From Secundilactobacillus odoratitofui DSM 19909 = JCM 15043 (lineage in GTDB: Bacteria; Bacillota; Bacilli; Lactobacillales; Lactobacillaceae), in contig NZ_AZEE01000027.1 of assembly GCF_001434895.1 (NCBI RefSeq), forward strand, positions 155,173 through 219,172: 64,000 nt of DNA, given 5' to 3'. The position numbers and the translations under genes were made by a program. This document shows, piece by piece, positions 16,500-62,959 of the stretch. Below the pieces are notes generated by a model. It saw nothing but the letters and a program-made list of their open reading frames with translations. It did no database searches and had not been told where the DNA came from. Every line of letters starts with the position of its first letter. The stretch's first letter is position 1.

Positions 16500-16540
16500 T
16501 ACTCACCAGTGAGTATACACTCACTTTTTTAATTGTGCAA
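16500..16540 (-). promoter_or_regulatory. Promoter with overlapping TetR-type operators
   Basis: On the minus strand, -35 TTGCAC (16535-16540) and -10 TATACT (16512-16517) are 17 bases apart. Two overlapping perfect inverted repeats share a half-site: ACTCAC-CA-GTGAGT (16501-16514) and AGTGAGT-ATAC-ACTCACT (16508-16525). They cover the -10, so a bound TetR would block initiation. Confidence 0.75.
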
Positions 16541-16550
16541 GCCAATAACA

Positions 16551-16590
16551 AAAAAGCCTTAGGATGAAATATCCTTTCACCCTAAGACTT
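16551..16590 (-). terminator. Intrinsic terminator of nrdJ
   Basis: A 16-bp stem with three mismatches (16554-16569 with 16575-16590) is followed on the minus strand by T residues. Confidence 0.85.
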
Positions 16591-16613
16591 CAAATAATCT
16601 AATCATCCTGACA

Positions 16614-18857
16614 CTATCTAATTGGACAAGCGCCCCCAGCACAATCACTTTGGTCAACTAGCTCAACGTCTTTTTGATCATCATTCATGGCTTCGAAAAT
16701 GGCCTTCACATCACCAGTGATCTGTGACCGACGTTGCTCGAAGGTATCCTTGGTAATGGGTTCCTTTGGTGCCTGTTCGAAGGCGTCACCCGCATATGGT
16801 AACAATGACGTTGACTTCGTGGTAAACCGGTACTGTTTCAGTAAACTAGCGATTTGATCAGCTTCATCTGGCTGGAACGTCACCGTACAGCTCACTGCAT
16901 TATCTGACCAGTACGTTTGCAAGAAAGCTTGGGTAGCAAACTGTTCAGCAATTGGCACATTACCGGCGGACGCAAAGGCCTTGCTATCGGCATGAGCAGC
17001 GCGAACCGGGAATTCCACACAAATGGTGTTCTTAGTGTAAATATCTGGCTCCATCTTGTAACCGGCTTGCTTCAACGCTGGCAGGAGTGGATCGGAATCT
17101 TGGAAACGAATCCGTTGAATCAAGTATCCCGCGTAGTGGAAGTGCATGCCTTCAGAAACGCCAGCCAGTTTGGCAACCGTCCCAGACGGCTTCACCGTGG
17201 TGTGCTTGATGGAAGTCTGGCAATCTAATTCGTCAGAATAGGCTTGATCTGCGGCGTTAATTGACTGATAAAGTTGATCGACCCGCGTACTGATTTGTTC
17301 ATCATACACTGGTACCTTGATTGGTTCGCCCGTCACGCGGTCTGTACTATCCTTAAACCCTTTAACGACTCGTGTACCAAAGTCGTTTAAGAACCAATCT
17401 TGAATGCCAGACATTGAGATGCCGATTCGTCGGTTTTGGTTGATCACACGTCTGGAAACTTCCCAGTCATAGTGACTAAAGGTGACGCGCTTTGAAAAAC
17501 GAGTGCCAAGACGAAAGGCATCTTCAAGTCGCCAACCCTGTTCAGTCGCCACTGACGGGAATACTTCAAATAAGTTACATGGTTCACCATTAGCAAGGGA
17601 AATCTCACCACAGGGGTTAGTCCCTTCAACGTTACCATCAACGTTTTCCTGATAACCATCGATCGTACGACCCATGTGCCGTGATAACTCTAGGTTCACA
17701 ATGCCCGGCTCACCATTGTGGGTAATTGAATCAGCGATGTCATCGTAAGTGACCTTGCTAGAATTAATTGCAACACTGTTATTGGAAGCCCAACGATGAT
17801 GGTACAACTTGGCTTGGTCTTGTTTCATGGTGATAAACTCACTGTCATCATCAGATCCAAGTGCCAGTTCAGCTGAACGACGTACGTTACCGGCTACCAC
17901 AGTTTTACCGATTAGGTTTCCCATATCGGTACAATCAACTGCTGATAGCTTACTGCCAGCTCGCTGATTCAAAACCTGGTTAATATCAAACAGCATTTCA
18001 ACCAAGGGCATCGGTCCTGAAGCAGTACCGCCGAAACCGTGAATCTTAGCACCCTTAGGCCGAATATTGCTGATATCTAAAACTAGGTGTTGTTTACCCT
18101 CGGGATTCAGCGCATTAAAGTGCATATCGATCATCCGTGCGTTTGCGAGGACCCATCCCTCACGAGTATCCGGTAATGTCTCATAAATGACATCATCAAG
18201 GCTGTGGTTAGCGACCCAATCTTCTTTATCCACAGCACCTAACTTAATTGATGCATCGTGTGACGCACTCTCACGACTAACGACAACTGTCAGGTCAATC
18301 GCCTGATCAACGGCCGGCATTTGGTCAATATTACTGGTGACAACGGAAAAGCCAACGCCGCCACCCTTCATCAATTGATCAAATAGGAAGGAAAATGGCA
18401 TTGAAACGGCCTTTTGATCAGCATCTAGGTAAGCCGGCACAATATGACTGTCACCATAGGGTTGTGGCCGCATGGCAATAAACCAACAGTTGTTCAGGGC
18501 GTCGCCATTACGATGCTGATAGTCCGTACCGGCAATCCATAGGTTACGACCAGATGGTGTAGCACCTAACCCATAGACCAGTTTGAATAAATCTTGGGCT
18601 TCCTGAGTTAATTCAGTGATAACCTTTTCCGTCAATTTCCCGTTATGTAAACGCGGATCCAAGTTAATGTTACCTTCAACGACCCGCTTCACCGTTTCAT
18701 CCCAGTTCTCAGTTCGTTGCTTGTCATCTAACCAACGTGCATAAGTCCGCTTATAGGTCACCCAACCAAGGTCACCCCAGTGTGGCGTCACCGTTTGTTT
18801 AATTTGATTAATAAAATCGTCAGAAAGGACGATGGTACTCTGTAATTTAGTCTGCAT
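16614..18857 (-). CDS. nrdJ: Class II (adenosylcobalamin-dependent) ribonucleoside-triphosphate reductase
   Basis: A 747-residue monomeric reductase like the Lactobacillus leichmannii RTPR (739 residues). It makes dNTPs from NTPs using adenosylcobalamin to form the active-site thiyl radical. An active-site Cys is in NNCWFIAMRP (about residue 124). The radical Cys lies in the NPCGEISL loop, and the redox Cys pair is at the C-terminus (SDCAGGACPIR). ATG 18857 is chosen because AGGAG lies seven bases upstream; the in-frame ATG at 18950 falls inside a long hairpin. Two NrdR boxes overlap the promoter. The gene lies directly downstream of a probable B12 import operon, which supplies its cofactor. 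Confidence 0.96.
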   Translation of the reverse strand: MQTKLQSTIVLSDDFINQIKQTVTPHWGDLGWVTYKRTYARWLDDKQRTENWDETVKRVVEGNINLDPRLHNGKLTEKVITELTQEAQDLFKLVYGLGATPSGRNLWIAGTDYQHRNGDALNNCWFIAMRPQPYGDSHIVPAYLDADQKAVSMPFSFLFDQLMKGGGVGFSVVTSNIDQMPAVDQAIDLTVVVSRESASHDASIKLGAVDKEDWVANHSLDDVIYETLPDTREGWVLANARMIDMHFNALNPEGKQHLVLDISNIRPKGAKIHGFGGTASGPMPLVEMLFDINQVLNQRAGSKLSAVDCTDMGNLIGKTVVAGNVRRSAELALGSDDDSEFITMKQDQAKLYHHRWASNNSVAINSSKVTYDDIADSITHNGEPGIVNLELSRHMGRTIDGYQENVDGNVEGTNPCGEISLANGEPCNLFEVFPSVATEQGWRLEDAFRLGTRFSKRVTFSHYDWEVSRRVINQNRRIGISMSGIQDWFLNDFGTRVVKGFKDSTDRVTGEPIKVPVYDEQISTRVDQLYQSINAADQAYSDELDCQTSIKHTTVKPSGTVAKLAGVSEGMHFHYAGYLIQRIRFQDSDPLLPALKQAGYKMEPDIYTKNTICVEFPVRAAHADSKAFASAGNVPIAEQFATQAFLQTYWSDNAVSCTVTFQPDEADQIASLLKQYRFTTKSTSLLPYAGDAFEQAPKEPITKDTFEQRRSQITGDVKAIFEAMNDDQKDVELVDQSDCAGGACPIR

Positions 18858-18889
18858 GGCGGGTCTCCTTTTTTGAAAATATGAGTGTG

Positions 18890-18989
18890 AAAAATAGCGG
18901 TTAGTACCCAGAGTGTAAGCCATCAATCCAGATGACCTGATCTTGGTCATTTGGATTGATGGCTTACGCGGCCGGGTACTGCTATTTTT
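18890..18989 (-). other. Very long hairpin in the nrdJ leader
   Basis: Between the nrdJ promoter and start codon lies an interrupted palindrome. The paired blocks are 9 bp (18890-18898 with 18981-18989), 7 bp (18903-18909 with 18974-18980), 16 bp (18915-18930 with 18952-18967) and 6 bp (18932-18937 with 18945-18950), around a 7-base loop. The minus-strand RNA would end the hairpin in TTTTT, so it could act as a terminator for read-through or as an attenuator of nrdJ. Confidence 0.7.
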
Positions 18990-19043
18990 TACACGTTACG
19001 GCCACCCAACACTAATACTGACAGCCGCCTCAAACAGCATTCA

Positions 19044-19092
19044 ACACTATATATAGTATCCTGGTTGAAACCAATTATCAATATATAGTATC
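19044..19092 (-). promoter_or_regulatory. nrdJ promoter with two NrdR boxes
   Basis: Two 16-base NrdR-type boxes are present, with cores CTATATATAG (19047-19056) and CAATATATAG (19079-19088), 32 bases apart, which fits the usual three-turn spacing. On the minus strand, -35 TTGATA (19076-19081) and -10 TACTAT (19053-19058) are 17 bases apart, so each box overlaps one promoter element. NrdR repression by dATP-loaded protein is established for such sites. Confidence 0.85.
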
Positions 19093-19208
19093 GAGACGGA
19101 TATTTAATAACACCCAGCCAACCCGTGCTCCAACAAGATTTACCATCGAGAAAAATTTTTTGGCCAATCACAATTCGGGTCATCTCACACCACAAATTCA
19201 AAACGGAC

Positions 19209-19931
19209 TTAAAAAGACGACCGCTCCAATTCCTCACGCGCGTCCATCAAACCATACTTATACTTATACCGCGTAATAATGCGATACCAACTCTTGTAGA
19301 AACAAAAGAGTAAAACGGCCGTGGTCACGCCATGGACCAAATCAAAGTAAAAACTAGCTGCGAAAGCCGCCACAAACGTTTTAGCGTTCAACGGCTGAAC
19401 GTATACCAGCGCATACCAAAGGTCCATGATCCAACCAAACAAAAAACCGTAGATAATACCCAGGGTAGCCAACCAGCCACGCTGATGGGCCCACTTCAAG
19501 TTTCTTAACAATCCAGCCGTAACGCCCATCATGCCCCAAGCAAACATTTGCCAAGGCGTCCAGGGCCCCTGTCCTAAGAAGAGATTAGAGACAATTGCGG
19601 CTGTTGAGCCAACGATGAATCCAGATTCCGGTCCTAACGCTAACGCCGTTACGATCACGATAAAACTAGTCGGCTTGACATCAGGAAAGGCCGCCATGGC
19701 AACCCGGCCCATTGCCGCCATAGTCGCCAAGACCGCTAAAAACACAATTTCACGGGCCTCTGACCGCTTCATTTCGAAGTGCCAGTAGAATGGTAGCATG
19801 CTAAAAACCAGGCATAGCAGACTCAAAATCAAGTAATGCTGATCGCCATTAAAATACGTAATCCACACTAAACAGAGCACCATTAGACTAATCGAAATCA
19901 GGTATCCGCCCCGTTGTTTTAATTTACTCAA
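19209..19931 (-). CDS. ECF transporter S component, probably for cobalamin (CbrT-like)
   Basis: A 240-residue membrane protein with about six to eight helices. It starts at TTG 19931, overlapping the end of the ATPase gene by eight bases. The segment GRVAMAAFPDVKPTSFIVIV followed by TALALGPESGFIVGSTAAIV is typical of ECF substrate-binding subunits near B12 genes. N-terminal helices before the S-fold and an EREIV-like coupling region (SEAREIVFLAVLATMAAMGR) are visible. Neighbours (fused EcfA, EcfT, DUF4430 proteins, alpha-barrel protein, nrdJ, pduO) point to cobalamin or a corrinoid precursor. Cobinamide or another ligand cannot be excluded from sequence alone. Confidence 0.8.
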   Translation of the reverse strand: MSKLKQRGGYLISISLMVLCLVWITYFNGDQHYLILSLLCLVFSMLPFYWHFEMKRSEAREIVFLAVLATMAAMGRVAMAAFPDVKPTSFIVIVTALALGPESGFIVGSTAAIVSNLFLGQGPWTPWQMFAWGMMGVTAGLLRNLKWAHQRGWLATLGIIYGFLFGWIMDLWYALVYVQPLNAKTFVAAFAASFYFDLVHGVTTAVLLFCFYKSWYRIITRYKYKYGLMDAREELERSSF

Positions 19932-21576
19932 CGACGGCGACCTCCTCTCGTGTGATCAAATTAGGCACAAGGTCACGCATCAATCGGTTAGTTGCAGTGG
20001 TGTAAAAGAAATTTTCGGCAAAAAATTGGTGTGGCTCAGCTTGCGAGACAATTTGCCCGTCGAATAATAAGGTGCAGTGATCGGCAAAGCGGGCACTAAA
20101 CGCCATGTCGTGACTGACCATCACAATGGTGACACCCCGTTCTTGCTGTAATCGTTTGAGGATCTTGCCCAGTCGCTGACGCCGCACCGGATCAAGGCCT
20201 TTAGTTGGCTCGTCAAGTAATAGTACGCTGGGCGCCGATAGTAATAATATGCCCAAAGCAATCAATTGTTGTTCGCCGCCACTGGCGTCATGAGGGTTCT
20301 GGTTCGCCAATGACACTAAGTCGAGTCGGGTGAGCATCTCCTGAGCAGCCTGCTTTGGATCCGTAAGTCCTAGCTGCTCAGCTCTTGCGACAAATTCCGC
20401 CATTACCGTGTCATAGCTAAAATAGTCACTGGGGGTTTGAGATAGGAAACTGACCTGTTGATACAGTGATTGTTGGTGCCATGAATTAACGCGTTTACCA
20501 AGTAATTTGGCGGTGCCACGCCTTGGAGTCAACAAGCCCATCATGACTTTTAGCAGCGTCGTCTTGCCGGTGCCGTTTTTGCCAATAATGGCGAGCCAAT
20601 CGTTTTCCGGCACCTTCAAATTTAAGTCATCGAGGACGTAATTACCGTTACGGTCGTATTCAAATGCCACGTGAGTGAGATTGACTGCCCAGTTACGCCT
20701 TACCGGTTCCTTGGCTGTCGCAATGACGGGCCGTTTAAATTTTGCCTTGCCCTCACGTAATTCTCGTCGTCCTGCCACAACGGTCAATGGCAGCCCACTG
20801 GTCTGAGTTAACTGATTATTCAAAAAAACATAGGGCACATCTGGCACAAACAGACGGGCGTCAGGTTGTTGCCACAGATGGCCTAAAGTGTCACTCACTG
20901 TGTTAGTGTCAGTTATTTCACCTGCTCGGATAAACCAAAGCTGATCAGCCAGTGGCAACACATCGTCAAGAACGTGTTCAGTCATGACGATCGTAATGCC
21001 CAATTCTTCGTGAATTCGCTGCAACAACGACATAAACGACTTGGTGGCAATTGGGTCAAGTTGAGCTGTCGGTTCATCTAATAAAAGTAACTTGGGACGC
21101 AAAATCAACACTGACGCCAAATTAACTAATTGCTTTTGACCACCAGATAGGTTCGTCACATCTTCATACAGCAAATCTTGGAGCCCCAAAAAACTGGCTA
21201 ATTCAGCGATTCGTCTCTGGATATCACCGGATGACATGCCCACGTTCTCCAGTGAAAACGCTAATTCTTGAATCACATTATCCATCACTAATTGATCATC
21301 GGGGCTTTGAAAGACCATGCCAATGCTTTGGGCACTGACGACCGTACCTAATTCATTGATTGGGTGACCATTAAAAAGAATTTCACCCGTCCGTTTACCG
21401 ACCGGTTGGAGCTCTGGCTTCAACTGCCGAAGGAGTGTCGTCTTACCGCTACCAGAAGGACCGGCAATCACAATGAACGCACCGGCTTCAACTGATAAAG
21501 TCACATCCGAAAGACTTTTGTGGTCTGATAACGCATATTCAAAGTTTAAATGCCGTGTTTCAACAAGTGCCACCAT
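19924..21576 (-). CDS. ECF transporter fused double ATPase (EcfA-A')
   Basis: A 550-residue protein with two complete ABC ATPase domains in one chain, so it supplies both energising subunits of an ECF importer. First domain: GPSGSGKTT, NLSGGQKQ, LLLLDEPTAQLD. Second domain: GKNGTGKTT, DASGGEQQ, VLLLDEPTKGLD, with VMVSHDMAFSA as H-loop. ATG 21576 has GGAG just upstream and overlaps the end of EcfT by 31 bases. Alternative in-frame starts lie at 21588 and 21645. A dedicated (group I) ECF module, rather than the shared lactobacillus EcfAA'T, is implied by the neighbouring S component. Confidence 0.92.
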   Translation of the reverse strand: MVALVETRHLNFEYALSDHKSLSDVTLSVEAGAFIVIAGPSGSGKTTLLRQLKPELQPVGKRTGEILFNGHPINELGTVVSAQSIGMVFQSPDDQLVMDNVIQELAFSLENVGMSSGDIQRRIAELASFLGLQDLLYEDVTNLSGGQKQLVNLASVLILRPKLLLLDEPTAQLDPIATKSFMSLLQRIHEELGITIVMTEHVLDDVLPLADQLWFIRAGEITDTNTVSDTLGHLWQQPDARLFVPDVPYVFLNNQLTQTSGLPLTVVAGRRELREGKAKFKRPVIATAKEPVRRNWAVNLTHVAFEYDRNGNYVLDDLNLKVPENDWLAIIGKNGTGKTTLLKVMMGLLTPRRGTAKLLGKRVNSWHQQSLYQQVSFLSQTPSDYFSYDTVMAEFVARAEQLGLTDPKQAAQEMLTRLDLVSLANQNPHDASGGEQQLIALGILLLSAPSVLLLDEPTKGLDPVRRQRLGKILKRLQQERGVTIVMVSHDMAFSARFADHCTLLFDGQIVSQAEPHQFFAENFFYTTATNRLMRDLVPNLITREEVAVVE

Positions 21577-22475
21577 CCCCACTCCCATCCTTCTAAGATC
21601 ATTGGAAAACTCACCAAAATTGCGACCTCTAACAATACCAGCCATCCTTCAACGGATAAACCCATCTGCCCCAATGATGGGTAAATGACCAACCTTCCAA
21701 TTCCTTGACTGGCCTCAAAGAAGCAACTACCGCTCAACAAAAGCAACCAGAGCAGCCAGACCAAATCACGTTGCGTAAAGCGATAACGCTGAAAACTAGT
21801 GCGTTTATGACTAGCGTACCCACGGGCACTCATGGCATCCGCAGTTTGTAGCGCTCGGTCAAAGGAATCTTCTAGCAGCACGGCCATTAACTTAACTAGA
21901 CTAATACTGCGTTGCCGAAAGCCACCCTGTTCTACCTCGATACCGCGCAACGACTGTGCTTGAATAATGCCTTTGAAGCGTTTGATAAATAATGGCACAA
22001 ATCTTAAGGTCATCATGGTCAGTAACGTTAACTTAGGCGAAAACCGTGAAAATAAATACATGAACTTTTGACTCGTTAGGTATTGATTATACGAAATGAA
22101 CGTCAACAACACGATTACCAGCGATAATGCCATGAGTAAGCCATACATCACGGCTTCAACCGTGATCAAAACGCCACCGAACGTCCAAATGACATGCGCA
22201 CCACGATTATTGACCAGTGGGTTAAGGACCATAATGAACGCCACCATAAAGACGCTGCCCTCTAACGTCATCAAGACTCGATGACCGCTTCTGCCGACCA
22301 AGTTCACGCCAACCATTAAAATCAACATCGTGCCCAAAAAAACGGGGTGAATAAAAACCATGGCACAGCCAACCACCGCGACGTAATAGGTTAATAGAAC
22401 CCACGGATTGAGCTGTTCAATCACTAAATGTCGGGGGTGTCTTATCGGTCGCCCAGTGTTTGCGTCCATAGCCAT
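21546..22475 (-). CDS. ECF transporter T component
   Basis: A 309-residue membrane protein of the CbiQ/EcfT family that couples the S component to the ATPases. The two coupling-helix motifs are visible as QSLRGIEVE and MSARGYAS. Helices occur near residues 28-65, 75-130 and 230-300. The annotated start (ATG 22475) overlaps the upstream DUF4430 gene by 34 bases and has no clear ribosome site; ATG 22469 is equally possible. The overlap suggests translational coupling. It overlaps the fused ATPase gene downstream. Confidence 0.9.
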   Translation of the reverse strand: MAMDANTGRPIRHPRHLVIEQLNPWVLLTYYVAVVGCAMVFIHPVFLGTMLILMVGVNLVGRSGHRVLMTLEGSVFMVAFIMVLNPLVNNRGAHVIWTFGGVLITVEAVMYGLLMALSLVIVLLTFISYNQYLTSQKFMYLFSRFSPKLTLLTMMTLRFVPLFIKRFKGIIQAQSLRGIEVEQGGFRQRSISLVKLMAVLLEDSFDRALQTADAMSARGYASHKRTSFQRYRFTQRDLVWLLWLLLLSGSCFFEASQGIGRLVIYPSLGQMGLSVEGWLVLLEVAILVSFPMILEGWEWGWWHLLKHGI

Positions 22476-23221
22476 TGTACGATATCGCCGTCCTTCACCT
22501 TATAAGTGCCTGCACTGTAATTTGGGATAACACCGTTCACACTGTATAGCCACCCACCATTGGCACCGCCCGAACCTGCGCTCATACCATCGATTCCGCT
22601 AACGTAAAGAGAACCACCAGTGCCAGTGTAACTGAGTGGCACACCTAATTTTTGCAATACTGTAAAGGCCGTATCGCCATCAGTAATCGTCACCGTGCCG
22701 GAGGCTAAAACTTTATTGCCCTGCAAAACGGGACCAAAGACCTGTACTTGAACCTGCTCAGCCTGCGACGTTGCGTTACTGGTAGCTGTATTCGTTGTTT
22801 CAGTACCGACTAAAGCGGTAATTGGTGCCTTAGGTGTCACAACTGAATGACGTTGTTTCAAATAACCGTGCCAAATCCACCCGTTAACTTTACCGTTTTT
22901 TGACTTAACGTGGTCATAAATCGCGTGTTTACCGTTAGCACGAGTAACTGTCGCCTGTGTATAGGTATAAAAAGTAGTGTGCGGATAATTTTTGGCATAA
23001 TGAGTTACTTTTTTTAGATAACTCGTCTGGTAGAAGTTCCCCTTAGCTACTGAGTAACTATTTTTGGCGAGCTTTTTATACGTCACTTTGACGACCCGTG
23101 TTGATTTAGTCTTAGCCTGTGCAGTTGCCGGATATCCAGCGATGTTTGTGCTGCCGAGCGCCAAGCCAAGGCTCAGCAAGGCAATGCCAGTTAATGTTTT
23201 AGTAATTGTTTTAAACGTCAT
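22442..23221 (-). CDS. Secreted DUF4430 protein with N-terminal wall-binding domain
   Basis: A 259-residue exported protein. Residues 1-37 are a signal peptide (GIALLSLGLALGSTNIAGYP). Residues about 42-127 resemble a basic, Tyr-rich SH3-like surface-binding repeat (VKVTYKKLAKNSYSVAKG, then GKVNGWIWHGYLKQ). Residues about 155-257 are a DUF4430 domain with DGDTAFTVLQKLG, GGWLYSVNGVIPNYSAG and a C-terminal DGDIVQWLWTQ. DUF4430 corresponds to the beta domain of transcobalamin/intrinsic factor, which contacts B12. AAGGAG precedes ATG 23221. It is translated just before the ECF T component, so it probably presents corrinoid to the importer; this role is inference. Confidence 0.85.
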   Translation of the reverse strand: MTFKTITKTLTGIALLSLGLALGSTNIAGYPATAQAKTKSTRVVKVTYKKLAKNSYSVAKGNFYQTSYLKKVTHYAKNYPHTTFYTYTQATVTRANGKHAIYDHVKSKNGKVNGWIWHGYLKQRHSVVTPKAPITALVGTETTNTATSNATSQAEQVQVQVFGPVLQGNKVLASGTVTITDGDTAFTVLQKLGVPLSYTGTGGSLYVSGIDGMSAGSGGANGGWLYSVNGVIPNYSAGTYKVKDGDIVQWLWTQTLGDR

Positions 23222-23242
23222 TGCGATTCTCCTTACCCACTT

Positions 23243-24208
23243 TTAGAATTTGAAAATCGAGCCCTTATTTAATCGGTAATATCGATACTGTTCCATCGCA
23301 TAAGCGGCTTGTTGCGTCGACATATGCAAGGCACCAGTATTACGACCAAATAACCAGCGAAACTGACCGGTCGTTTTTTGAAACTTAATCAGTCGCCTGA
23401 TGGGCGTTAGGCTACCTTTACCCTTAAAAGTGGTTTCCGGATTAATGCCAGCTGCTGATAGCCCGGCAATTGCCAGTGCGTTGGAATTAGCATTCGCCTG
23501 ATTTGTAAAAGCATTTTTTATAATAAAATCACCGGTACTTGGGTGATACGCTTGTTTTTTTAACATTGACTCCGCGCGTTTGATCGCGGTTTTCACACCA
23601 GGGTAAGTTTTATGCATCCCCAGCGCCATCAATGCCATTCCTGTTACATCCACGTCACTTACCGAACCACTGATTGCCCAACCACCCTGTGTATTTTGAG
23701 CTTTGACAATTTGCGCAATCAAAGTTTTGACCGTCTTAGTGCTGGTCTTGCCGTAATTAGCGGTACTCAGCGCAATGGCGCCCCAAATCTTACCATTGAT
23801 GCCAGCGTTTGATTTGGGCGCGGTCTTAATAATACCTGTTACCAGATTCTTACCTTCATACTTAGTCGGCTTCACACCAACAGACACTGCGCCAATCAGA
23901 CTTCTTTCGTAATCAACAGCTGCGTAATGACCATCCAGGCTTTTAAACTTTGCTGCCAATCGCTTCTTAAACACTTTCTTAGCAGCTGAACTCATGCCCT
24001 TTGGCGACCGCTTCACAGCCAGTGCATCCCAGGCATCTAAGTCGTTCTTGCTGGTTTTAGTTTTAATGTAACTCACTGCTTGATTGATTGATTTGTCATA
24101 ATACGGGGTTGCCGCTTGTGCTTGTAACGACGTGGTGACGGTTAGCAAAGTAACGGCAGCAAGTACAATTAAACTGATTTTTTTGATTAAACCCACTTTT
24201 GGTTCCAT
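23243..24208 (-). CDS. Secreted alpha/alpha-barrel protein (prenyltransferase/transcobalamin alpha-domain-like)
   Basis: A 321-residue secreted protein with a signal peptide (ISLIVLAAVTLLTVTTSLQA, then AQAAT). The rest is built of paired helices typical of the prenyltransferase/squalene-cyclase alpha/alpha toroid: IWGAIALSTANYG, TQGGWAISGSVSDVDVTGMA, ANSNALAIAGLSAAG, and a final STQQAAYAMEQYRYYRLNKG. Terpenoid-cyclase Asp-rich catalytic motifs were not seen. In transcobalamin the B12-binding alpha domain has this fold and pairs with a DUF4430-like beta domain. Here one DUF4430 gene lies on each side. I therefore propose a surface corrinoid-binding subunit; direct homology to PF01122 needs a profile search. 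Confidence 0.75.
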   Translation of the reverse strand: MEPKVGLIKKISLIVLAAVTLLTVTTSLQAQAATPYYDKSINQAVSYIKTKTSKNDLDAWDALAVKRSPKGMSSAAKKVFKKRLAAKFKSLDGHYAAVDYERSLIGAVSVGVKPTKYEGKNLVTGIIKTAPKSNAGINGKIWGAIALSTANYGKTSTKTVKTLIAQIVKAQNTQGGWAISGSVSDVDVTGMALMALGMHKTYPGVKTAIKRAESMLKKQAYHPSTGDFIIKNAFTNQANANSNALAIAGLSAAGINPETTFKGKGSLTPIRRLIKFQKTTGQFRWLFGRNTGALHMSTQQAAYAMEQYRYYRLNKGSIFKF

Positions 24209-24282
24209 TTAAATACCCCTTATTTTCGCTATTTTAACCTTGATTTTGACTTTTTCATCGCTCGAATTTGCAACAATCACGC

Positions 24283-25026
24283 TTATCTTTGTGACACCCG
24301 CGGTGCATCCCTATCTTTACCTAAATTAGCCGTATAGAGCCACTGAATTTTGTCGCCTTTTTTTACTCGGTATTTTCCGCTAGAATAGCCCGGAAATTTG
24401 CCATTTACAGCGTATAACCAACCGCTGCCTGACCCTTTATCAAATTCGAACAGTCCCGCAATTCCTCTGACATATAGCGTCGTACCATTTCCTTGGTACG
24501 AAACCGCCACGTGACTCGCTTTGGCGACGCGAATCAAAACTTTACCCACGGTATCACCACTGTGAATTGTGATGGCTGACTTACTCAACAAAACATGATT
24601 ACCACTTTTTATTGGGCCACGGACAACTAACGAACAAGTAGCAGTTTGCTTCGCCGTATCAGTTGATCGATTAGATTTAGATCGAACCGCCTTAATTTTA
24701 TTTGAAGTACCTGACCGCGCCGTGTCTGCTTGAGCTGTTTTGCTTTGCTTGACGTTGCCCGTCAGCGCTTTAACCTGTTCATCTGAATGACGGGTACCAG
24801 CCTTCGAATTATTGCTCTGCTCAACTGCTTGCTCGCTGGCGGTTGCACCACTTGCCTCAGAGCTCATACTAGCGCTTGCCGAAGATGCTGACCCCGATTG
24901 TTTTTTGGTCGAATAAATATTGCTTGCCTGGCTAACGGTATGATTCATAGCTCGATAACCTGCAAACCCTAATCCAAATATCACAGCCAAACTCACAATG
25001 AGTGCTATTAGTCGTTTTCTTGACAT
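24283..25026 (-). CDS. Membrane-anchored or secreted DUF4430 protein
   Basis: A 247-residue protein. The N-terminal helix (LIALIVSLAVIFGLGFAGYR) lacks an evident cleavage site, so it may stay as a membrane anchor. A low-complexity Ser/Ala/Gln/Lys linker follows (residues about 36-125). The C-terminal DUF4430 domain (about 131-240) has SGDTVGKVLIRVAKASH, GSGSGWLYAVNGKFPGYSSG and KGDKIQWLYTANLG. ATG 25026 has GGGAGG upstream. It sits between the helical wall protein and the barrel protein in the operon. Having one tethered and one wall-binding DUF4430 protein suggests two stations on the path of the ligand to the importer (inference). Confidence 0.82.
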   Translation of the reverse strand: MSRKRLIALIVSLAVIFGLGFAGYRAMNHTVSQASNIYSTKKQSGSASSASASMSSEASGATASEQAVEQSNNSKAGTRHSDEQVKALTGNVKQSKTAQADTARSGTSNKIKAVRSKSNRSTDTAKQTATCSLVVRGPIKSGNHVLLSKSAITIHSGDTVGKVLIRVAKASHVAVSYQGNGTTLYVRGIAGLFEFDKGSGSGWLYAVNGKFPGYSSGKYRVKKGDKIQWLYTANLGKDRDAPRVSQR

Positions 25027-25048
25027 TCCGATAAAGCCTCCCTACACG

Positions 25049-27166
25049 TTAATACTTTGTTGCCAATACCAATTTTTTATTGGCAGAAACGTAGTGACCA
25101 TTCGTAAGTTCAAATCGACTTGTCAGGCCAAGTTTGATCAGCTTTTTTACTCGCAACGTCCGCCCTTTGCTGACTGCCATTTTCTTTCCGGTTAACTGCT
25201 TGGATTGATACTGGTTGATTCCCTTAGTAGCTATGACTTTAATCGTTTTAGGCGTTGTTTGATAGTAAGCATTCACAACGGACTGACGACTTGCCGTTAA
25301 ATAACCTGTTTGACCACTACGGATTGCTTTAACAGCAAAAACTGACTGACCATCTGAATTTTGGGTCTTCTTGACGACCTTAAACATTGGTCGCTTAGTT
25401 CGTTTTTGTTTGGCATAGGTTGCCACTACCGACCCAGTCAGAGATGCGTGTTTGTAAAGTTTAACCTTACCGATTGCATAAACGATTTTCGTTGATTGGT
25501 CTGCCTTAATAGAATCTGTCGACGACGCCTTGGCGGAAACACTGAAGGCATTCACAGCTGATTGACCGCTTGCTTGAATGGCGGTCATCTCAGCTAGTGT
25601 AGTTGCGCGCCTAAGCTGATTTTCATAGTTGGTTACCAACTTATCAACTGCAGCGTATGCGGCCACTTTTAGATTTGCTGCTACGTTTTGATCATCTTGA
25701 ATCCCAACCTTTTTGCGGTTTCCAGTCGTAATGACAGCGTTGATGGCTGCATTAATCTGATCAGTGGTTAAGCCGCCCTCTGTTGATGTCGTTGCTGTGG
25801 CAGCTGCCGTGTGCATGGCTTGAGTTGCCTGAATCGTTGAGATGGCAGCCTTTTTGATGGTCGTTAAAACTTGAACCGTCGTGGTTGCCATGTTGGCATT
25901 ACTCGTATATTTGGTAACTTGTGCGTCGATGGTTGCCTTTGCCGTCAATTTTTGAGCGGTTGACGCCAAATCATCTTGATCAATGACTTGTTTTTGGGCA
26001 GTTGCTGCCGCTTGAATTTCGGCTAGGGTACTGGCCAGCTCATCGCTGGTAGGTTTAAGTGTTTTCAATGCCGTCAAGGCCGACTGTCCTGTCGACATGA
26101 CGCTATTGATTGCAGTTGAAGTTTGGGCCTGACCGATCTGCGACTCGTACGTTGCTAATTTTTGGGACAGTTGTTGTTTTGCGACTGCAACATCCGTGTC
26201 GTAACCCGTAATTTGATTTAACGCTGCCAAAACCGACTCGTAAGTTGCTTGCAGTTGTGCTATCGCAGTGCTGCGGTCTGAATCACTGGCTTGGTTGTAT
26301 GTGGTAACCGGAATAATTGCTGCGTATTCTGAATAAAACCCCTTCACTAAACTAATCAAACCAGTCTTCGTTAATGTTTTATCAGCAAGTTTAGCTTTAT
26401 CATTAGCTAAACTTTGGGTTACCATTGCTAGGGCTGTTTGCTTTGAAGCATCGGTGCCAACCGCCTGTTGCTTAATTTGGGTTTGTCTCATCGTAGCCAG
26501 CTGTGTCAACATAAAGTTCGCAAAGGTACGCTGATCGTCATGGAGAGTGGTGTCGCCGGTATCGGTGTCGGTATCGACACTGGTTTGAAGTAACGCATTA
26601 ACTAGATTGTTCCAAAGCATACTAAGCCCCGTTTTCGAGCGCATCAGTGTATTCTTTGAAATCGTCGTGGCGTCTGTATACTTCTGATACTTGGCGATAT
26701 TCGTACTCAGGGCTGACTGATCAATGCCAGATTGGCTGATTTCTGTCTGACGTTCCTGCAATAAAGCCGCAACTAAATTCGCTTCAGCTTGCCAGTCGAC
26801 TGGCGTTGCTAAATTAATCAGTGACGTTTCAATATTTTTAACGGCCGTCAAGAACTGACTACGTGACAGCTTTCCGGCTTCGTACGCTGTAATTTGAGTC
26901 TCAATAGTATTGACCGTTGATAAATGCGTGTCATACGTTTGTACCAATGGCGATTGAGAAGTTGCGTCGTCTGTCATATTTGGTGACAATGTCTTTACCA
27001 AAGTTTGAACTTCATCACGCGCCTGACTAATATCGGCTATCATCGTGCTAGAGACGTCAGTGTCTGCGTAAGCAACTTGCTGCGTAAATTGATCTTGCAC
27101 GGGTACACTGACCCCTAAAATTGTGGAAAACAATAATACACTGGTTGTAACCCGCTGTAACTTCAT
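25049..27166 (-). CDS. Secreted helical surface protein heading the cobalamin operon
   Basis: A 705-residue exported protein. The signal peptide spans about residues 1-35, ending near QQVAYADTD. Residues about 40-570 are Ala/Thr/Gln/Lys-rich, predicted long helices with repeated patterns (for example ATAQKQVIDQDDLASTAQKL and TKYTSNANMATTTVQVL), suggesting an extended stalk. The last 135 residues look like two SH3-like wall-binding repeats (KIVYAIGKVKLYKHASLTGS and later TPKTIKVIATKGINQYQ). There is no LPXTG. ATG 27166 has GGAGGG upstream. It is first in the operon, so it may be the structural wall component of the capture apparatus. I do not recognise a named family for the stalk. Confidence 0.7.
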   Translation of the reverse strand: MKLQRVTTSVLLFSTILGVSVPVQDQFTQQVAYADTDVSSTMIADISQARDEVQTLVKTLSPNMTDDATSQSPLVQTYDTHLSTVNTIETQITAYEAGKLSRSQFLTAVKNIETSLINLATPVDWQAEANLVAALLQERQTEISQSGIDQSALSTNIAKYQKYTDATTISKNTLMRSKTGLSMLWNNLVNALLQTSVDTDTDTGDTTLHDDQRTFANFMLTQLATMRQTQIKQQAVGTDASKQTALAMVTQSLANDKAKLADKTLTKTGLISLVKGFYSEYAAIIPVTTYNQASDSDRSTAIAQLQATYESVLAALNQITGYDTDVAVAKQQLSQKLATYESQIGQAQTSTAINSVMSTGQSALTALKTLKPTSDELASTLAEIQAAATAQKQVIDQDDLASTAQKLTAKATIDAQVTKYTSNANMATTTVQVLTTIKKAAISTIQATQAMHTAAATATTSTEGGLTTDQINAAINAVITTGNRKKVGIQDDQNVAANLKVAAYAAVDKLVTNYENQLRRATTLAEMTAIQASGQSAVNAFSVSAKASSTDSIKADQSTKIVYAIGKVKLYKHASLTGSVVATYAKQKRTKRPMFKVVKKTQNSDGQSVFAVKAIRSGQTGYLTASRQSVVNAYYQTTPKTIKVIATKGINQYQSKQLTGKKMAVSKGRTLRVKKLIKLGLTSRFELTNGHYVSANKKLVLATKY

Positions 27167-27583
27167 CCAATTCCCTCCGTGCCTAACTAAAGTTCACCGC
27201 CAGCCACAATGAGCCATTATGTAAATAAATCGGTGTTGATTTTTTTGAATTTCGGTCATAAATTAATTCATTCAGAAATCAACATAGTGTATGCCTTTTG
27301 AAAATATCGCTCAAAAATTCGGCTATCTTGTGGGTGACGGTTATTTTTGACTACGCTATCTAATTTACACACTATTCGAAATAAACTCAAATCAAATTGG
27401 GACGTAAAATTTATTTTTGAGCCACTTTTGTGCGTACCTTTAAACATATTATGCCCATCTCGACGGTTTTTTTAAGTGATGTTACCGCTAAAATATTTGT
27501 AGAATAATATTTTTCTGACTGATCACCAAGTTGACTTTCAAATCATTCTGGTTTATTAATTAAAAAACAAACGGAGGTCAATT
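27167..27583. promoter_or_regulatory. Divergent promoter region of the cobalamin island
   Basis: This AT-rich 417-base gap drives the capture/import operon (minus) and pduO (plus). For pduO, -35 TTGACT (27531-27536) and -10 TATTAA (27554-27559) are 17 bases apart, with GGAGG 25 bases further on. For the minus operon, TTGAGT with TAAATT at 17-base spacing (around 27370-27400) is a weaker candidate. I looked for a cobalamin riboswitch core (GCCACTG and the adjacent B12 box) on both strands and saw none. Confidence 0.45.
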
Positions 27584-28162
27584 ATGAAAATTTACACACG
27601 ACATGGCGATAAGGGCAAAACTCAAATCATTGGTTCGACGATGGTCGATAAAGATGACACGCGAGTTGAGGCTTACGGTACCGTTGACGAACTTAATTCT
27701 TGGATTGGTTACACCGCTGCTAACCTAAACCAAGCGACAGCCAATCTACAATCAGAGCTAGAAGAAATTCAACAACTTCTATTTGATGTTGGTCGTGATC
27801 TTGCAACGCCAGCAACTGATCAAAAGCACGATTACGTGTTCACGACGGCCATTGCTGATCAACAAACGAAGTGGTTAGAAGATCGTATTGACGCCTACGT
27901 TGCGGCAACTCCCACCATCAACCGCTTTATCTTACCCGGTGGGTCGCCACAAGCAGCCGCTTTACACGTGGCTCGGACCATCACCCGTCGTGCCGAACGT
28001 TGTATCGTGGCGCTTCAGGGTCAGGCCGCCATCAATCCCAACACACTCGTTTTTATCAACCGCTTATCAGACTACTTCTTTGCGGCAGCTCGTTATGCTA
28101 ATGTGCAAAATGGGGAAACTGATATTTTTTACCGAAATGGTAATCCGGTGTTTAAGAACTAG
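27584..28162 (+). CDS. pduO: PduO-type cob(I)alamin adenosyltransferase
   Basis: A 192-residue enzyme that transfers adenosyl from ATP to cob(I)alamin to make adenosylcobalamin. The signatures are TRHGDKGKTQIIGS at the N-terminus (ATP loop), VEAYGTVDELNSWIG, RTITRRAER and the C-terminal NRLSDYFFAAAR. Length and motifs match the single-domain PduO of lactobacilli. ATG 27584 has GGAGG eight bases upstream. It is divergent from the B12 capture/import operon. No propanediol utilisation genes are in the window, so its product is most likely used by NrdJ. Confidence 0.95.
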   Translation: MKIYTRHGDKGKTQIIGSTMVDKDDTRVEAYGTVDELNSWIGYTAANLNQATANLQSELEEIQQLLFDVGRDLATPATDQKHDYVFTTAIADQQTKWLEDRIDAYVAATPTINRFILPGGSPQAAALHVARTITRRAERCIVALQGQAAINPNTLVFINRLSDYFFAAARYANVQNGETDIFYRNGNPVFKN

Positions 28163-28191
28163 TGCCCACTCGTTTGGAAACTTGAAATGAT

Positions 28192-28240
28192 ACTAAAATG
28201 GCATCAGCTACCCCTCTTGAGTAGCTGATGCCATTTTAGT
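28192..28240 (+). terminator. Intrinsic terminator of pduO
   Basis: A perfect 20-bp stem (28192-28211 with 28221-28240) ends in TTTTAGTTT. Confidence 0.9.
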
Positions 28241-28333
28241 TTAAGCATTATGGTGCTTGGCCAATTCATGATTCTTAATCAAATTACCCGTAAACTCAGG
28301 CTAGGTTAATCCATCAAAACGAGTTAACATTAA

Positions 28334-29563
28334 TTGAGGTCTAAACGAAAGGAAGTTTTTATTATTAATCAGCGAAGTAAGGGCGTATCTCTATTAGTTG
28401 TCATCTTATTAATTGGTTTTATTATGAGATCACCCATCACCACCCCGCCGTTATTGCTTGGTCACTTAGCAAACCAGTTACAGGTTCATCAGAGTCAACT
28501 TGGCATATTAACCACCCTGCCACTCGTGATGTTCATGCTATTTTCCAATTTTGCCGCAAAACCAATCATGCGTTTTGGCCTAAAACGGGCCCTCTTGTAT
28601 GCGCTACTGGCAATCGTTTTAGGCTCAGCACTCCGGATGGTTATGACAATGCCAACCATGATCCTGGGCACCATTTTTATCGGTATCGGCATCGCACACT
28701 TGAACGTTTTCATGCCGTCACTGGTTTCTGCCTATTTTCCAAATAAAATCGGCCTGTACACCACACTATACTCATTTGCGATGATTTTCGGCAACATGCT
28801 GTTTAACCTGATCACCGCACCGATCAGTAACCAATTCGGCTGGCAAACAATTATTCTCATTTTGTTACTCATTCCAATAATTAGCTGCCTCAGTTGGTTA
28901 CTCATCAGTCGCGTAATTCCCGAAAAAATCGCACCTGGTAAACCAACAACCGGTGATCAAGGTCCCCAACCTAAATTACGATTATGGACTAATCCGAAAG
29001 CCTGGCCCTTCTTACTCACATTTGGTGGTCAAGCAACTTTAAGCTACACCGTCACCGCTTGGATGCCAGCTCTCATGGAATACCATCACGTTAGCGCTGG
29101 TCATGCTGGTATCGTCATGGCAATCTACGCATTCATTGGGCTGCCAGTTTCAATTATTTTACCTAATATTTTAACTAACCTCTCTCAACGTTACATAAAG
29201 TTACTCACAATTGGAGCTGGGCTGGTTGCGTTAGTCGCCAGCGGGTTGCTATTTTTCCAACACACTCGTTCGATGTTCTACTGGTCATCCGAGGCCTTTT
29301 TAATTGGTTTATCCATTGGCTTCTTCTTCATTACGATTATGACCATGTTTGTAATGAAAACCAAAACGCCCTATGAAACTGCTCAACTATCTGGTATGGC
29401 TCAAGCCGGCGGTTACTGTATGTCAGCGTTTGGCCCATCACTTTACGGGCTGGCCTTCGCCGCTAACCCCGCGGGTGATATTCAAAATATCTGTTACCTC
29501 ATCTTGGCCTTAATCATGTTTCTAGCCTGTTGGCGAGTCGTCAAAACTGAAACGCTTGATTAG
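28334..29563 (+). CDS. CynX/NimT-family MFS transporter; unusual start
   Basis: A 12-helix MFS protein of the cyanate/nitroimidazole transporter-like family. The early segment RSPITTPPLLLGHLANQLQV and a helix 4 region GIGIAHLNVFMPSLVSAYFP are typical. The first in-frame start is TTG 28334 (409 residues), which lacks a good ribosome site. The only good one, AAAGGAAG (28348-28355), sits five bases before ATT codons at 28361 and 28364, giving about 400 residues if ATT initiates. The next ATG, at codon 31, is within the first helix. The gene ends by overlapping the convergent transporter gene by four bases, with no terminator. Substrate unknown. Confidence 0.82.
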   Translation: MRSKRKEVFIINQRSKGVSLLVVILLIGFIMRSPITTPPLLLGHLANQLQVHQSQLGILTTLPLVMFMLFSNFAAKPIMRFGLKRALLYALLAIVLGSALRMVMTMPTMILGTIFIGIGIAHLNVFMPSLVSAYFPNKIGLYTTLYSFAMIFGNMLFNLITAPISNQFGWQTIILILLLIPIISCLSWLLISRVIPEKIAPGKPTTGDQGPQPKLRLWTNPKAWPFLLTFGGQATLSYTVTAWMPALMEYHHVSAGHAGIVMAIYAFIGLPVSIILPNILTNLSQRYIKLLTIGAGLVALVASGLLFFQHTRSMFYWSSEAFLIGLSIGFFFITIMTMFVMKTKTPYETAQLSGMAQAGGYCMSAFGPSLYGLAFAANPAGDIQNICYLILALIMFLACWRVVKTETLD

Positions 29564-41441: not shown

Positions 41442-44400
41442 TTAGTCTTCTCGCTTACGCTTCTTACCTAATCCAACAAGACCAAGCATTGATAAACCTA
41501 GCAAGCCAATCAATGAAGCAGTTTCAGTTTGACTTTCACTTGTTTGTGGTAATTTCTTGGCACTAGTCTCATCAACTGACTGTTCAGCAGTTGATTGTAG
41601 CTGCTGGCCATTGCTTGTTGCAGTGGCAGTCTTAAGATAGGCCTTCTCAGATGTTGCCGATTTCAGTGGCGTATTTTCGACTGAAGTCGTGGCCTTTTTA
41701 CCGTTCATCGGCTTACCCATCGGAGTCGTTGCCGGCGTTTCGTCTGGGGTGACGGATTCTCCGACTACTGGCGTTGACGGCGTCACTTCTTGTGCCGCAG
41801 TTGGTTCAGGTTCAGGCGTTGGCGTTTCAACTACTGGATTAGCAGTGTAGTAAACCGTTGCCGTTACAGGTGCTGGGTTCATCTCAGCTAAAGCTGGTAC
41901 TTCAACTTGATCCGGCGTCATACCGGCCACGTTGGCGCTCTTCACTGCAGGGAACGTGCTACCGGTTTCAACAGATGGTGTCCACGCTGTGTATGTGATG
42001 ACGGGCTTGCCATCAGTTGTATAGCTCACGTGAGCAGTTCGAACAAACTTCAGAGTTTGCTTAATGCTTGGTGCGACCGTCTTCCCTGTCGTCTTATCAA
42101 TGAAACGAACCGTTTCGGTCACGATTCGATTTAAGTCAGTGGTCGAGATACCAACTGGGTAAGTCAAGCCATCTGGACCATCGGGATCCATTGGAGTCCC
42201 TTCATCTTTAGGACCAATTGGGTCGTTTGGTGACGCGGGTTCGTTAGGTCCCACCGTATACTCTGGATAATACGTGACCACGTATTTCACAGGTGCTGGC
42301 TGCGTTTCAGTCAGTGCATCAATGCTGGCCGTTTCAGTGACCATGTTTTCAATGTCCGGCGTCACTTGTTTGAAGAATGTGTCCCCGGTATCCTTTGAGG
42401 CCACCCAAGCTGAATACGTCACCTGTGGTGTCCCGTTAACATCGTAACTCACCGAAGCTGATCGACTAAAGCGCAGCGTCTGCTTAGAGGCACTAGCCAC
42501 TTTTTGCCCCGTTACACCATCGACATAGTAAATTGTTCGAGTGGCAGTTGCATTCAGGTTTTGATCTTGAAGACCTTCAGGCACTTCAGGACTACCTGGA
42601 ATAGCAGGCTTAGCCGGTGTTTCACCATCAGCTGGTGTCCCAGGATCAATTGAAGCCGCTGGCGCAACTGGTTGATCTGGGGTCACTGTGTAATCTTGAT
42701 AATAGTACACCGTCAAACTAACTGGTACTGGCCAAGTTTCCGTGACGGCATCAACAGTCGGCATATTGCTCGTGTAACCGTCAATTTCAGGTGATTTAAC
42801 GGCACGAAAAGTATCGCTCTCAACTGGTAACCAATCACTGTAAACGACAGTTCCTTGCCCATTTTTATCAAACGAAACGTTAGCCGTACGGTAGAACTTA
42901 AGCGTTTGCGTTACGGATTCATGGACTGGTTCGCCTGTTTTACTATCAATGTAGTTGATGGTTTCAACTGCCGTAGTCGTTAAGTCCGCTTCCGTCACAC
43001 CGGCAGGATAAACAGGTGTGTGATCATCTGGGGTATGCTTACCATCCGTTGGGACTAATTGATCACCCGGATTCTTCGGTGAAACTGAAGGATCACTCGG
43101 ATCAGTCGGCGTAATTGGTGTCACAGTGACGTTCGTAGGATAGTAGTTCACAGTTAAATGTAATGAGATCGGTGTTTTCACCGTCATTTGATCAACGACT
43201 GGCGTTGTCGTATACATCTGGTCGACATCAGGACTGGTAACGGCATCAAAAGTAACCGGTGTCCATGCATCATAACTAACAGCTGGCTTATGATCGATAA
43301 CTGAATATGACACATGTGCGTTTCGGGTCATGTTCACCGTTACGTTCTTAGTTAACGGTTGACCTGCCGCATCAGTTAGAACATCTCCGGTGACACCATT
43401 CACATAGGTAATCGTCTCAGTGACCTGACGCGTCAAATATTCTGACGTTAACCCTTCTGGTGCATTTGGGACGTTTTCATCACCAGTTACTGAAGGGACT
43501 AACGAATCTCCAGGGTTAAGTGGTCCCTGAACTTGACTTGGATCATCTGGATCGACTGGTGTGCCAGGGGTTACGGTATATTCAGCTGGATAGTAGTACA
43601 CCGTCTCTGATACGTCAGTTGGTACTGTCTCAGTAATTTCACTGTTGCTTTCAGTTGTTGTAAACATTCCATCAACAACCGGTGTATTTAACTCATGATA
43701 AATGTTGCTATCCAGATCTGCTGGTGTCCAGTTATCATAAGTTACTTTAGGTGAACCGTCTTGGTTGTAACTCAAATGACCAACTCTGTTGAAGTAGATC
43801 GTTTGAATACCCGTTTTAGCGACTGAGGTTTGCTTGTCGATACCACTCAAATATTGAATCGTTCGCGTCGAAGTCTGGTTTAAATCAGTGGCAGTCAAGC
43901 CAGTACCATCTGGATTATCCGGTGAAGTCGTGTTTTCAGGATAAAGCGGACTGTTAGGGTCATCCGGATTAATTGGCGTGCCTGGTGTCACAGGTTGATC
44001 TGGCTGTATGGTAATATCGCCGTAGTAGTAGACCGTGGCAGTCACGTCGATTGGGAAAGTTTCCGTCATGGCATCAACCTGTTTCAAATCAGCAAGTTTA
44101 CCATCAATCACTTGTGGCACGGTTACCGATTCAAATTGTTGATCAGCCGTCGTTTTAGGCGTCCACTTGCCGTAAGTGACTGCGGTGCTGCCATCTTGGT
44201 TCCAGACAACGTGGGCATTCCGAACAAAGTGCAACGTGTTACCTGTGGTTGGTGCTTGCAGCGTTGCATTTGTCATGCCATCAACGTAACGAATTGTTTC
44301 AGTAGCAGTTGTATTGAGGTCATCGGCACTGACGCCCGCAGGATAAACTCGTGGATCATTAGGATCAGTTGGTGTAACGTTATTCCCCTCGCCCGCTGGA

Positions 44401-58084: not shown

Positions 58085-58762
58085 GTTTTTCACCTCTAAT
58101 ATTTAAAAAGACACAATTGAACGGGCCGCTTCGTCATTTTGTACGAAGCACCCTCTTTTATGGTAAAAATATGATGTTAAAAAATGAAACGTCAATAATT
58201 TAACCCTTACCGGAAAATAAAATAGACTTCATTCTCATATTGGTATTCTTAACGTAGATGCATCCCAACAAAATTTTATAAACACTATTATATCAGCATG
58301 TAAGCGGTTGTTTCATTAAAGTGTACTCATAAAGTTTTGATTATGCAATTATATTTGGGCAATAATTTCAATTCGTAATTAAACTGTAATGTAAATTTAC
58401 AATCCAATTCAGCCTAAAATTGGTTGTTTTATGACCTATACTATTTTGTGAAATGGGCTTAGGTCATGTTTTAACTACTTTACTGGTCAAAAACAAGACA
58501 CGCTGACTTAAAAGAGTTGTTAATCCTGTATTACATCAGCATGATTGGCCTTTCACGGGGTATATTCAGTATTTCATAATTTACATCTTGCTAATTACCC
58601 ATTTTAGAGTCAGACATATTAAGAGCACAGTTTACGATAACTCAAATTTCCGTTCACCCGATAAATTTACGCAAAAAGGCGACACGATTCAAATCGAATC
58701 GTATCGCCTTTACTAACGGCAAAACGTTAGTCATCTCGAACTATTTGCTGCTAGTTAATCTT
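58085..58762. promoter_or_regulatory. Long AT-rich intergenic region with leader hairpin
   Basis: This 678-base gap precedes the 1200-residue surface protein (minus). GCTTCGT (58128-58134) pairs with ACGAAGC (58143-58149) just upstream of its ribosome site region, making a leader hairpin. A perfect 12-bp palindrome TGTAAATTTACA lies at 58390-58401. No gene is supported. The left promoter could not be fixed. The terminator of the next gene is at 58675-58711. Confidence 0.45.
58675..58711 (-). terminator. Intrinsic terminator of the 1285-residue surface protein gene
   Basis: A 16-bp stem with one mismatch (58675-58690 with 58696-58711), a five-base loop and T5. Confidence 0.9.
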
Positions 58763-62620: not shown

Positions 62621-62959
62621 ATGAATGCTCCCCTTACGCATTATTTATAGAAAGAATCCTCCAAAGATTCGTACATGATGTTTGACACATCGTGGTTATT
62701 TCAAACATAACACTTTTAATGTAACTATAAAACCTTTTTGCAGGGTTCCCGTCTCCTTTCTTTTTAAGGTACAACTAACTTTAGTTGCGTCAAGCAAGTA
62801 ACTTACACTAATCTGGTTTGTACATACTCATAATCTGAGGTATTTATGCTAAACTGTTATACAAACTGCTTAATTAATACGAAATAACTAATATCATTTG
62901 AAATAATTAAAACCTGTTTTTATATGATAATTAAGTGCCGATTCACAAGGAGGACCACC
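62621..62959. promoter_or_regulatory. Divergent promoter region of the surface protein and pentapeptide protein
   Basis: For the plus gene, -35 TTGAAA (62898-62903) and -10 TATATG (62921-62926) are 17 bases apart. The minus-strand leader has a small hairpin (GAATC with GATTC around 62670-62690) that holds GGAGG in its loop. Otherwise AT-rich with no supported gene. Confidence 0.45.

Follow-up and report, generated by a model that had tools for sequence, protein, structure and literature searches.

What role would four exported proteins have in one operon with a complete energy-coupling factor (ECF) importer, between a gene for an adenosylcobalamin-dependent enzyme and a gene for a cobalamin adenosyltransferase? 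The question is raised by a minus-strand operon of Secundilactobacillus odoratitofui, located in a 64-kb stretch that we call the window and whose positions are used below unless another locus is named. Our answer, which we consider likely, is that the operon encodes a surface corrinoid capture system feeding a dedicated ECF importer of vitamin B12 (cobalamin), with an exported alpha/alpha toroid protein (the barrel) and DUF4430 proteins acting as a two-chain equivalent of transcobalamin. Capture and import of B12 is very probably what the system serves. A dedicated importer and a B12 function, both proposed in a preliminary description of this DNA, are strongly supported by features evident from gene content, sequence and context: the substrate-binding (S) component matches CbrT, a DUF4430 profile ranks transcobalamins and intrinsic factor first among known structures, the gene order recurs in relatives, cobalamin riboswitches accompany the genes there, and the cluster co-occurs with B12-dependent enzymes.

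The operon encodes a CbrT-like ECF importer

The operon runs from the helical wall protein through DUF4430 protein a, the barrel, DUF4430 protein b, the transmembrane component EcfT and a fused EcfAA ATPase to the S component. Downstream of the latter lies nrdJ (16614..18950, minus strand), encoding an adenosylcobalamin-dependent ribonucleoside-triphosphate reductase (RTPR; TIGR02505, 834 bits), and divergent on the upstream side is a pduO-type cobalamin adenosyltransferase gene (27584..28162, plus strand; TIGR00636, 206 bits). Open reading frames (ORFs) and Pfam/NCBIfam matches confirmed the gene list, the order, the coordinates and the placement of nrdJ and pduO as previously described. Intergenic gaps within the operon are -100 to +74 nt as called; since 258 nt separate nrdJ from the S component, nrdJ may be a separate transcript. 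A QueG gene is found elsewhere in the same genome.

A complete T, A and A' module is encoded within the operon, as recognized by Pfam and NCBIfam. EcfT (21546..22475, minus strand) belongs to the CbiQ family (PF02361, 7.6e-18), and the fused EcfA-EcfA' ATPase (19924..21645, minus strand) has two ABC ATPase stretches and probably starts later than its listed ATG. In transporters of the ECF class, the membrane S component itself binds the substrate. Here the S component (19209..19931, minus strand, TTG start) matches PF07155 and PF12822, and a phmmer search of the PDB matched it over residues 56-227 to 6fnp_A (E=1.4e-11). No other S component was matched at E up to 10, the sole other match being an unrelated pigment protein (E=1). 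The 6FNP entry is the deposited structure of ECF-CbrT from L. delbrueckii, which carries cobalamin and cobinamide and whose CbrT gene sits in an nrdJ-cbrS-cbrT-pduO cluster (PMC5997447). Thus both organisms have a CbrT-like S component beside nrdJ and pduO, whereas the window operon also includes the ECF module and exported capture proteins.

DUF4430 proteins are related to the beta domain of animal B12 carriers

The two DUF4430 proteins, a (24283..25026, minus strand) and b (22442..23221, minus strand), are transcobalamin-like members of the SLBB superfamily. They match PF14478 with E=1.5e-15 for b and E=5.2e-17 for a, the two scores being 57.8 and 62.5 bits against a gathering cut-off of 23.8. 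By inspection, protein a has an N-terminal hydrophobic anchor followed by a Ser/Thr/Ala-rich linker, and protein b begins in the manner of a signal peptide, with a possible wall-binding part in its N-terminal region. Hydrophobic N-terminal segments were seen, again by inspection, on all four exported proteins of the operon; none of the four has a recognizable lipobox or LPXTG motif, or a Pfam match to a BtuF-type periplasmic binding domain.

Animal transcobalamins are known to carry DUF4430 (PMC4350170). When a domain-only profile of 38 bacterial DUF4430 sequences (A7) was searched against all PDB chains (177,635 sequences), the top seven matches were transcobalamin-2, gastric intrinsic factor and transcobalamin-1 (E 0.0095-0.18), with alignments running along the beta domain; it is this ranking among 177,635 sequences, not any single E-value, from which we draw the relationship. 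Other searches were less productive: the single sequence of DUF4430 protein b matched nothing in the PDB at E up to 10, a profile combining two full-length rows with domains (A5) gave nothing useful there, and NCBIfam returned no informative family for the DUF4430 rows.

DUF4430 also occurs at the C-terminus of AraC-type regulators (L015:5227-6324, minus strand; L018:13178-14275, plus strand; PF14478 about 1e-12), the first of which adjoins PduV. AraC-SLBB fusions in Lactobacillus have been named before (PMC1796856), and PocR of L. reuteri is the subject of PMC3162504. Matches reaching the DUF4430 end were found in 13 of 251 Lactobacillaceae genomes (E up to 1e-20) and, assuming that both searches drew the same 40 genomes, in 7 of the 9 with diol dehydratase and 0 of the 31 without. 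These fusions could be B12-sensing activators.

The barrel protein belongs to the alpha/alpha toroid class

As a single sequence, the barrel protein (23243..24208, minus strand) matched nothing in Pfam, with E allowed up to 1, or in NCBIfam, with a limit of 0.01, and only chance-level matches were obtained in the PDB. A profile of 60 sequences, the window protein and 59 relatives, matched squalene-hopene cyclases in the PDB (best 1gsz, E=1.8e-18) and, weakly, complement/macroglobulin proteins, and because of these matches we assign the barrel to the squalene-cyclase-like alpha/alpha toroid class. Of the 60 rows, 47 but not that of the window matched PF13243 at E up to 0.1, and PF01122 was matched by one of ten fused barrel-DUF4430 rows (8.5e-4), these ten having been selected for transcobalamin domain order. 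In the profile searches suggested in the preliminary description, PF14478 was found on both DUF4430 proteins, and neither PF13243 nor PF01122 was matched by the window barrel.

DxDD is the catalytic motif of squalene-hopene cyclases. With these cyclases as the best matches of the profile, the barrel could be imagined as an exported terpenoid-cyclase-like enzyme that stands in the operon incidentally. We regard this as highly improbable, given that DxDD is missing at the aligned place in all 60 sequences, that the barrel has an export signal by inspection, and that its relatives are associated with DUF4430 and with riboswitches for B12. With a limit of E=0.1, 55 of the 60 barrels also match NF053823, the NCBIfam model of the 'SCO2321 family membrane protein', the lowest E being 3e-18; this lead may point to a counterpart in Actinobacteria.

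The gene order recurs, most often in split form

A contig scan was carried out with the barrel alone, the query containing no DUF4430 or ECF genes, and the best 80 of 313 stretches, representing 78 distinct loci, were analyzed. A barrel-only ORF is present in 66 of the 78; in 51, a DUF4430-only ORF lies no more than 700 nt behind it on the same strand, with EcfT next in 46. When fused chains are included, the barrel-DUF4430 succession is found in 61 loci, with EcfT next in 54. DUF4430 occurs anywhere in 73 loci, T, A and S are all present in 57, and EcfAA is fused with S in 39 ORFs. Many of the 21 loci without the full ECF set end at contig ends and some do not (for example L028, L034 and L049). 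Because the same order recurs in other genera, chance is an unlikely explanation.

Chains containing both barrel and DUF4430 were found in 27 of the 78 loci, nine of which have the split form too. Among 28 fused ORFs, the toroid precedes DUF4430 in 20 and follows it in 17, some showing both orders. The split form, as in the window, is the commonest arrangement among the sampled loci.

This close association bears on whether the barrel takes part in binding at all. The DUF4430 proteins might catch corrinoid alone or together, with the barrel as a scaffold or a binder of something else, and hence no two-chain clamp. Such a reading would be in keeping with the two DUF4430 proteins that flank the barrel in the window, with the complexes proposed for paralogous SLBB proteins (PMC1796856), and with a cluster in genome G017 (L179:3599-8762) that has EcfT, EcfAA, CbrT and pduO and, near the latter two, two short DUF4430 ORFs, one of them 135 amino acids long and on the opposite strand. 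We nevertheless find it unlikely, because barrel and DUF4430 are adjacent in 61 of the 78 loci and fused in 27, and because all 20 barrel genomes in a set of 40 (described below) also hold DUF4430. The G017 cluster is a barrel-free variant of the system.

Around the cluster on a contig of S. kimchicus (L015), Pfam identified PduV, CobS, a histidine phosphatase, a MIP channel and a second S component, and in L017 (G012) an iron alcohol dehydrogenase was found nearby. The neighbourhood of L018 (G014), where the Pfam scan covered the AraC-DUF4430 protein only, resembles these two by inspection. A diol dehydratase gene lies about 2 to 15 kb from the barrel on the same contig in G162, G122, G174 and G152. 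In the neighbourhood survey proposed earlier, T, A and S were found in 57 loci, pduO lies in the same stretch as the cluster in L133 and L134, and nrdJ adjoins the window cluster only.

In G009 and G013, the S component is split into two ORFs (L014:6092-6825 and L019:8859-9592), as is the barrel of G013 (L019:12241-13190). Both genomes have contamination estimates of 7-8%, and the splits reflect either sequencing error or decay.

Cobalamin riboswitches precede the genes in relatives

A scan for the cobalamin riboswitch, model RF00174, covered 21 of the 78 loci, among them 16 from named organisms. The riboswitch was found in 19 of the 21, in 29 copies; for 18 copies, in 15 loci, a barrel or DUF4430 gene lies less than 450 nt downstream. 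A scan of 40 Lactobacillaceae genomes, in which the best 48 candidates were scored for many genomes so that misses are possible, detected nine copies. These fall in eight of the 20 genomes that have the barrel and in none of the 20 that do not. Each of the nine precedes a barrel match on its own strand, the distance being about 270-380 nt for seven of them and about 1.6 and 2.4 kb for the other two.

Cobalt uptake can also be under cobalamin riboswitch control. This observation, the CobS gene and histidine phosphatase just beyond the cluster in L015, and the transport of cobinamide by CbrT (PMC5997447) would all fit a substrate other than B12 itself, namely cobinamide, another incomplete corrinoid, or cobalt. 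We judge this quite unlikely: Pfam assigns the S component to two S-component families and lists no CbiM match for it, its match among known structures is CbrT, and the cluster goes with enzymes that use finished B12.

The cluster co-occurs with B12-dependent enzymes

The barrel was detected in 20 of 251 Lactobacillaceae genomes sampled, and these were compared with 20 of the 231 barrel-negative genomes, seven of the latter from Secundilactobacillus. RTPR passed its cut-off in 9 of 20 barrel genomes and 2 of 20 barrel-negative ones; the corresponding counts are 8 and 1 for diol dehydratase, and 10 and 0 for QueG, which is likewise B12-dependent. G040 and G076, the two barrel genomes with none of these enzymes, are only apparent exceptions, as their RTPR-like ORFs are another class of B12-dependent ribonucleotide reductase. 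In the barrel-negative genomes this other class was judged by weak echoes of the RTPR search, the sole echo (G015) being class Ib.

Overall, a B12-dependent enzyme of the families searched is present in 20 of 20 barrel genomes and 2 of 20 barrel-negative ones. The preliminary description had named wide occurrence of the cluster without any B12-dependent enzyme as an argument against its proposal; no such genome was seen in this Lactobacillaceae sample. Every one of the 20 barrel genomes has DUF4430, as do, on the barrel-negative side, precisely the two with RTPR; an enzyme of these families is thus present in 22 of 22 genomes with DUF4430 and in 0 of 18 without it (Fisher p=9e-12, uncorrected for relatedness). 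The B12-binding domain PF02310 exceeded its cut-off in 0 of the 40 genomes, and EutB was found in 0 of the 7 that its search covered.

In G040 and G076, short DUF4430 ORFs with lipoprotein-like starts by inspection (L175:4407-4817 and L176:3146-3550) adjoin the B12-dependent ribonucleotide reductase gene. The start of the G076 reductase ORF resembles, by inspection, what we take to be translated sequencing adapter.

The wall protein is likely a separated tether

The first protein of the operon (25049..27166, minus strand) is an exported helical wall protein with DUF1542-like repeats and a C-terminal DUF5776 (Pfam). In two Lentilactobacillus loci, L027 (by Pfam) and L028 (by blastp), chains combine a barrel with a helical region and a DUF5776-type end. 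In L138, a single chain contains the barrel (own profile) together with DUF1542, DUF5776 and DUF4430 (Pfam), and in L139-L140 our own profiles place barrel, wall region and DUF4430 in one chain. Because relatives carry its region inside longer barrel chains, the window protein looks like a separated tether, and it has likely been split off from a barrel-bearing chain.

In the genomes of L138-L140 (g14), cobalamin riboswitches stand just upstream of the long fused barrel-wall-DUF4430 chains. The ECF operon of two g14 genomes (L143, L144) is situated elsewhere.

A proposed two-chain capture step for an ECF transporter

From these findings we infer corrinoid binding, a two-chain clamp, hand-over to the S component and tethering as follows. 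The exported toroid and one or both DUF4430 proteins would assemble outside the membrane, tethered by the helical wall protein and the anchoring segments, and B12 would be held between toroid and DUF4430 domain as it is by the two domains of transcobalamin. The capture proteins would then pass the corrinoid to the CbrT-like S component, with EcfT and EcfAA driving import, after which PduO would adenosylate it for use by NrdJ and QueG. We see about an even chance that, in this way, an ECF transporter is served by a dedicated two-chain extracellular binder delivering B12 to CbrT, and that the split form may resemble the ancestor of the animal carriers.

Several observations weigh against this proposal. 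Taken one by one, the A7 E-values are weak, and only three proteins stand behind the seven entries. At E up to 0.1, PF01122 was matched by 5 of the 60 barrels, with 0.0063 as the lowest value, and not by that of the window; in PDB searches allowing E up to 1, neither the barrel profile nor the fused profile reached a transcobalamin or intrinsic factor. G017 has DUF4430 and CbrT without a barrel match, and nrdJ was found beside related clusters in 0 of 9 genus stretches and 0 of 78 loci. RF00174 was not found in L027 or L028, both from Lentilactobacillus, in 12 of the 20 barrel genomes, or in the genome of the window and three other barrel-bearing Secundilactobacillus genomes searched; the window has no cobalamin riboswitch at the gathering threshold, and positions 16500-28400 none at E up to 10. 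With 40.2 bits against a cut-off of 26.7, the S component also scores as a member of PF07155, whose name refers to riboflavin, while its match to TIGR04518, the model for folate S components, stays below the cut-off (19.6 bits against 60). Binding of another vitamin, raised in the preliminary description as a counter-argument, has these two matches on its side, and against it CbrT as the sole meaningful match in the PDB; both matches are broad or weak. A further route for B12 is possible, given five matches to FecCD permeases. Finally, a purified complex of ECF-CbrT subunits transports B12 (PMC5997447), so that capture proteins may not be obligatory; for this reason they are probably helpful at low B12 and not essential.

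Other features of the window

A terminator-like strong hairpin follows nrdJ on its own strand (16553-16591, minus strand), and another adjoins the 3' end of pduO (28193-28239, minus strand). The latter is a nearly perfect inverted repeat and may act on either strand. The scan counted 17 sites of this type, compared with 12.6 in shuffled sequence. Three very large exported proteins (41442-49328, 54482-58093 and 58763-62641) have LPQT-type C-terminal sorting signals by inspection and are probable adhesins.

Relation to known systems and significance

The core idea of the preliminary description is not new, having been published as a prediction in 2007. In defining the SLBB superfamily, Burroughs et al. 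(Biol Direct 2007, PMC1796856) described a transcobalamin-like clade that is widespread in low-GC Gram-positives, is fused with alpha/alpha toroids, FIVAR and other surface domains, and occurs in operons with CbiO- and CbiQ-like genes, with paralogous SLBB proteins acting together; B12 scavenging by these surface proteins and a transfer to animals were predicted. The window shares with that system exported DUF4430/SLBB proteins, a toroid partner, and paralogous SLBB genes with CbiO/CbiQ-type genes in one operon. It differs in that toroid and SLBB are separate genes, whereas the passages of that paper on toroids name them in transcobalamin or as fusion partners; the word 'riboswitch' is absent from its main text, and CbrT was described later. 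What is added here is the split-gene form, CbrT, the riboswitches, the co-occurrence and the likely origin of the wall protein.

In L. rhamnosus, the public annotation 'Additional lipoprotein component of putative cobalamin ECF transporter' already ties an extra exported protein to such a transporter, and the DUF4430 protein LGG_02295 lies beside rtpR (PMC9963975). This annotation, as given there, names no barrel, and the window proteins differ in having no lipobox. As in BtuF-BtuCD, an extracytoplasmic protein would bring B12 to an ABC importer, but the exported proteins have no BtuF-type Pfam match and the transporter is of ECF type. Animal transcobalamin and intrinsic factor consist of the same two fold classes by sequence profile, rank first in the PDB with the DUF4430 profile, and share their domain order with some fused bacterial chains; in the window, by contrast, there are two chains, and the barrel is remotely similar, PF01122 being unmatched by the window protein. 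The literature searched, with subscription papers and preprints outside it, held no experimental test of such a bacterial system.

With small, separately expressible proteins, the 2007 prediction becomes directly testable. If correct, the proposal would provide an extracellular capture step for an ECF transporter and would tie animal B12 carriers to bacterial B12 scavenging by gene context as well as by fold. It would also show how Gram-positive bacteria, including clostridia of animal guts, compete for corrinoids.

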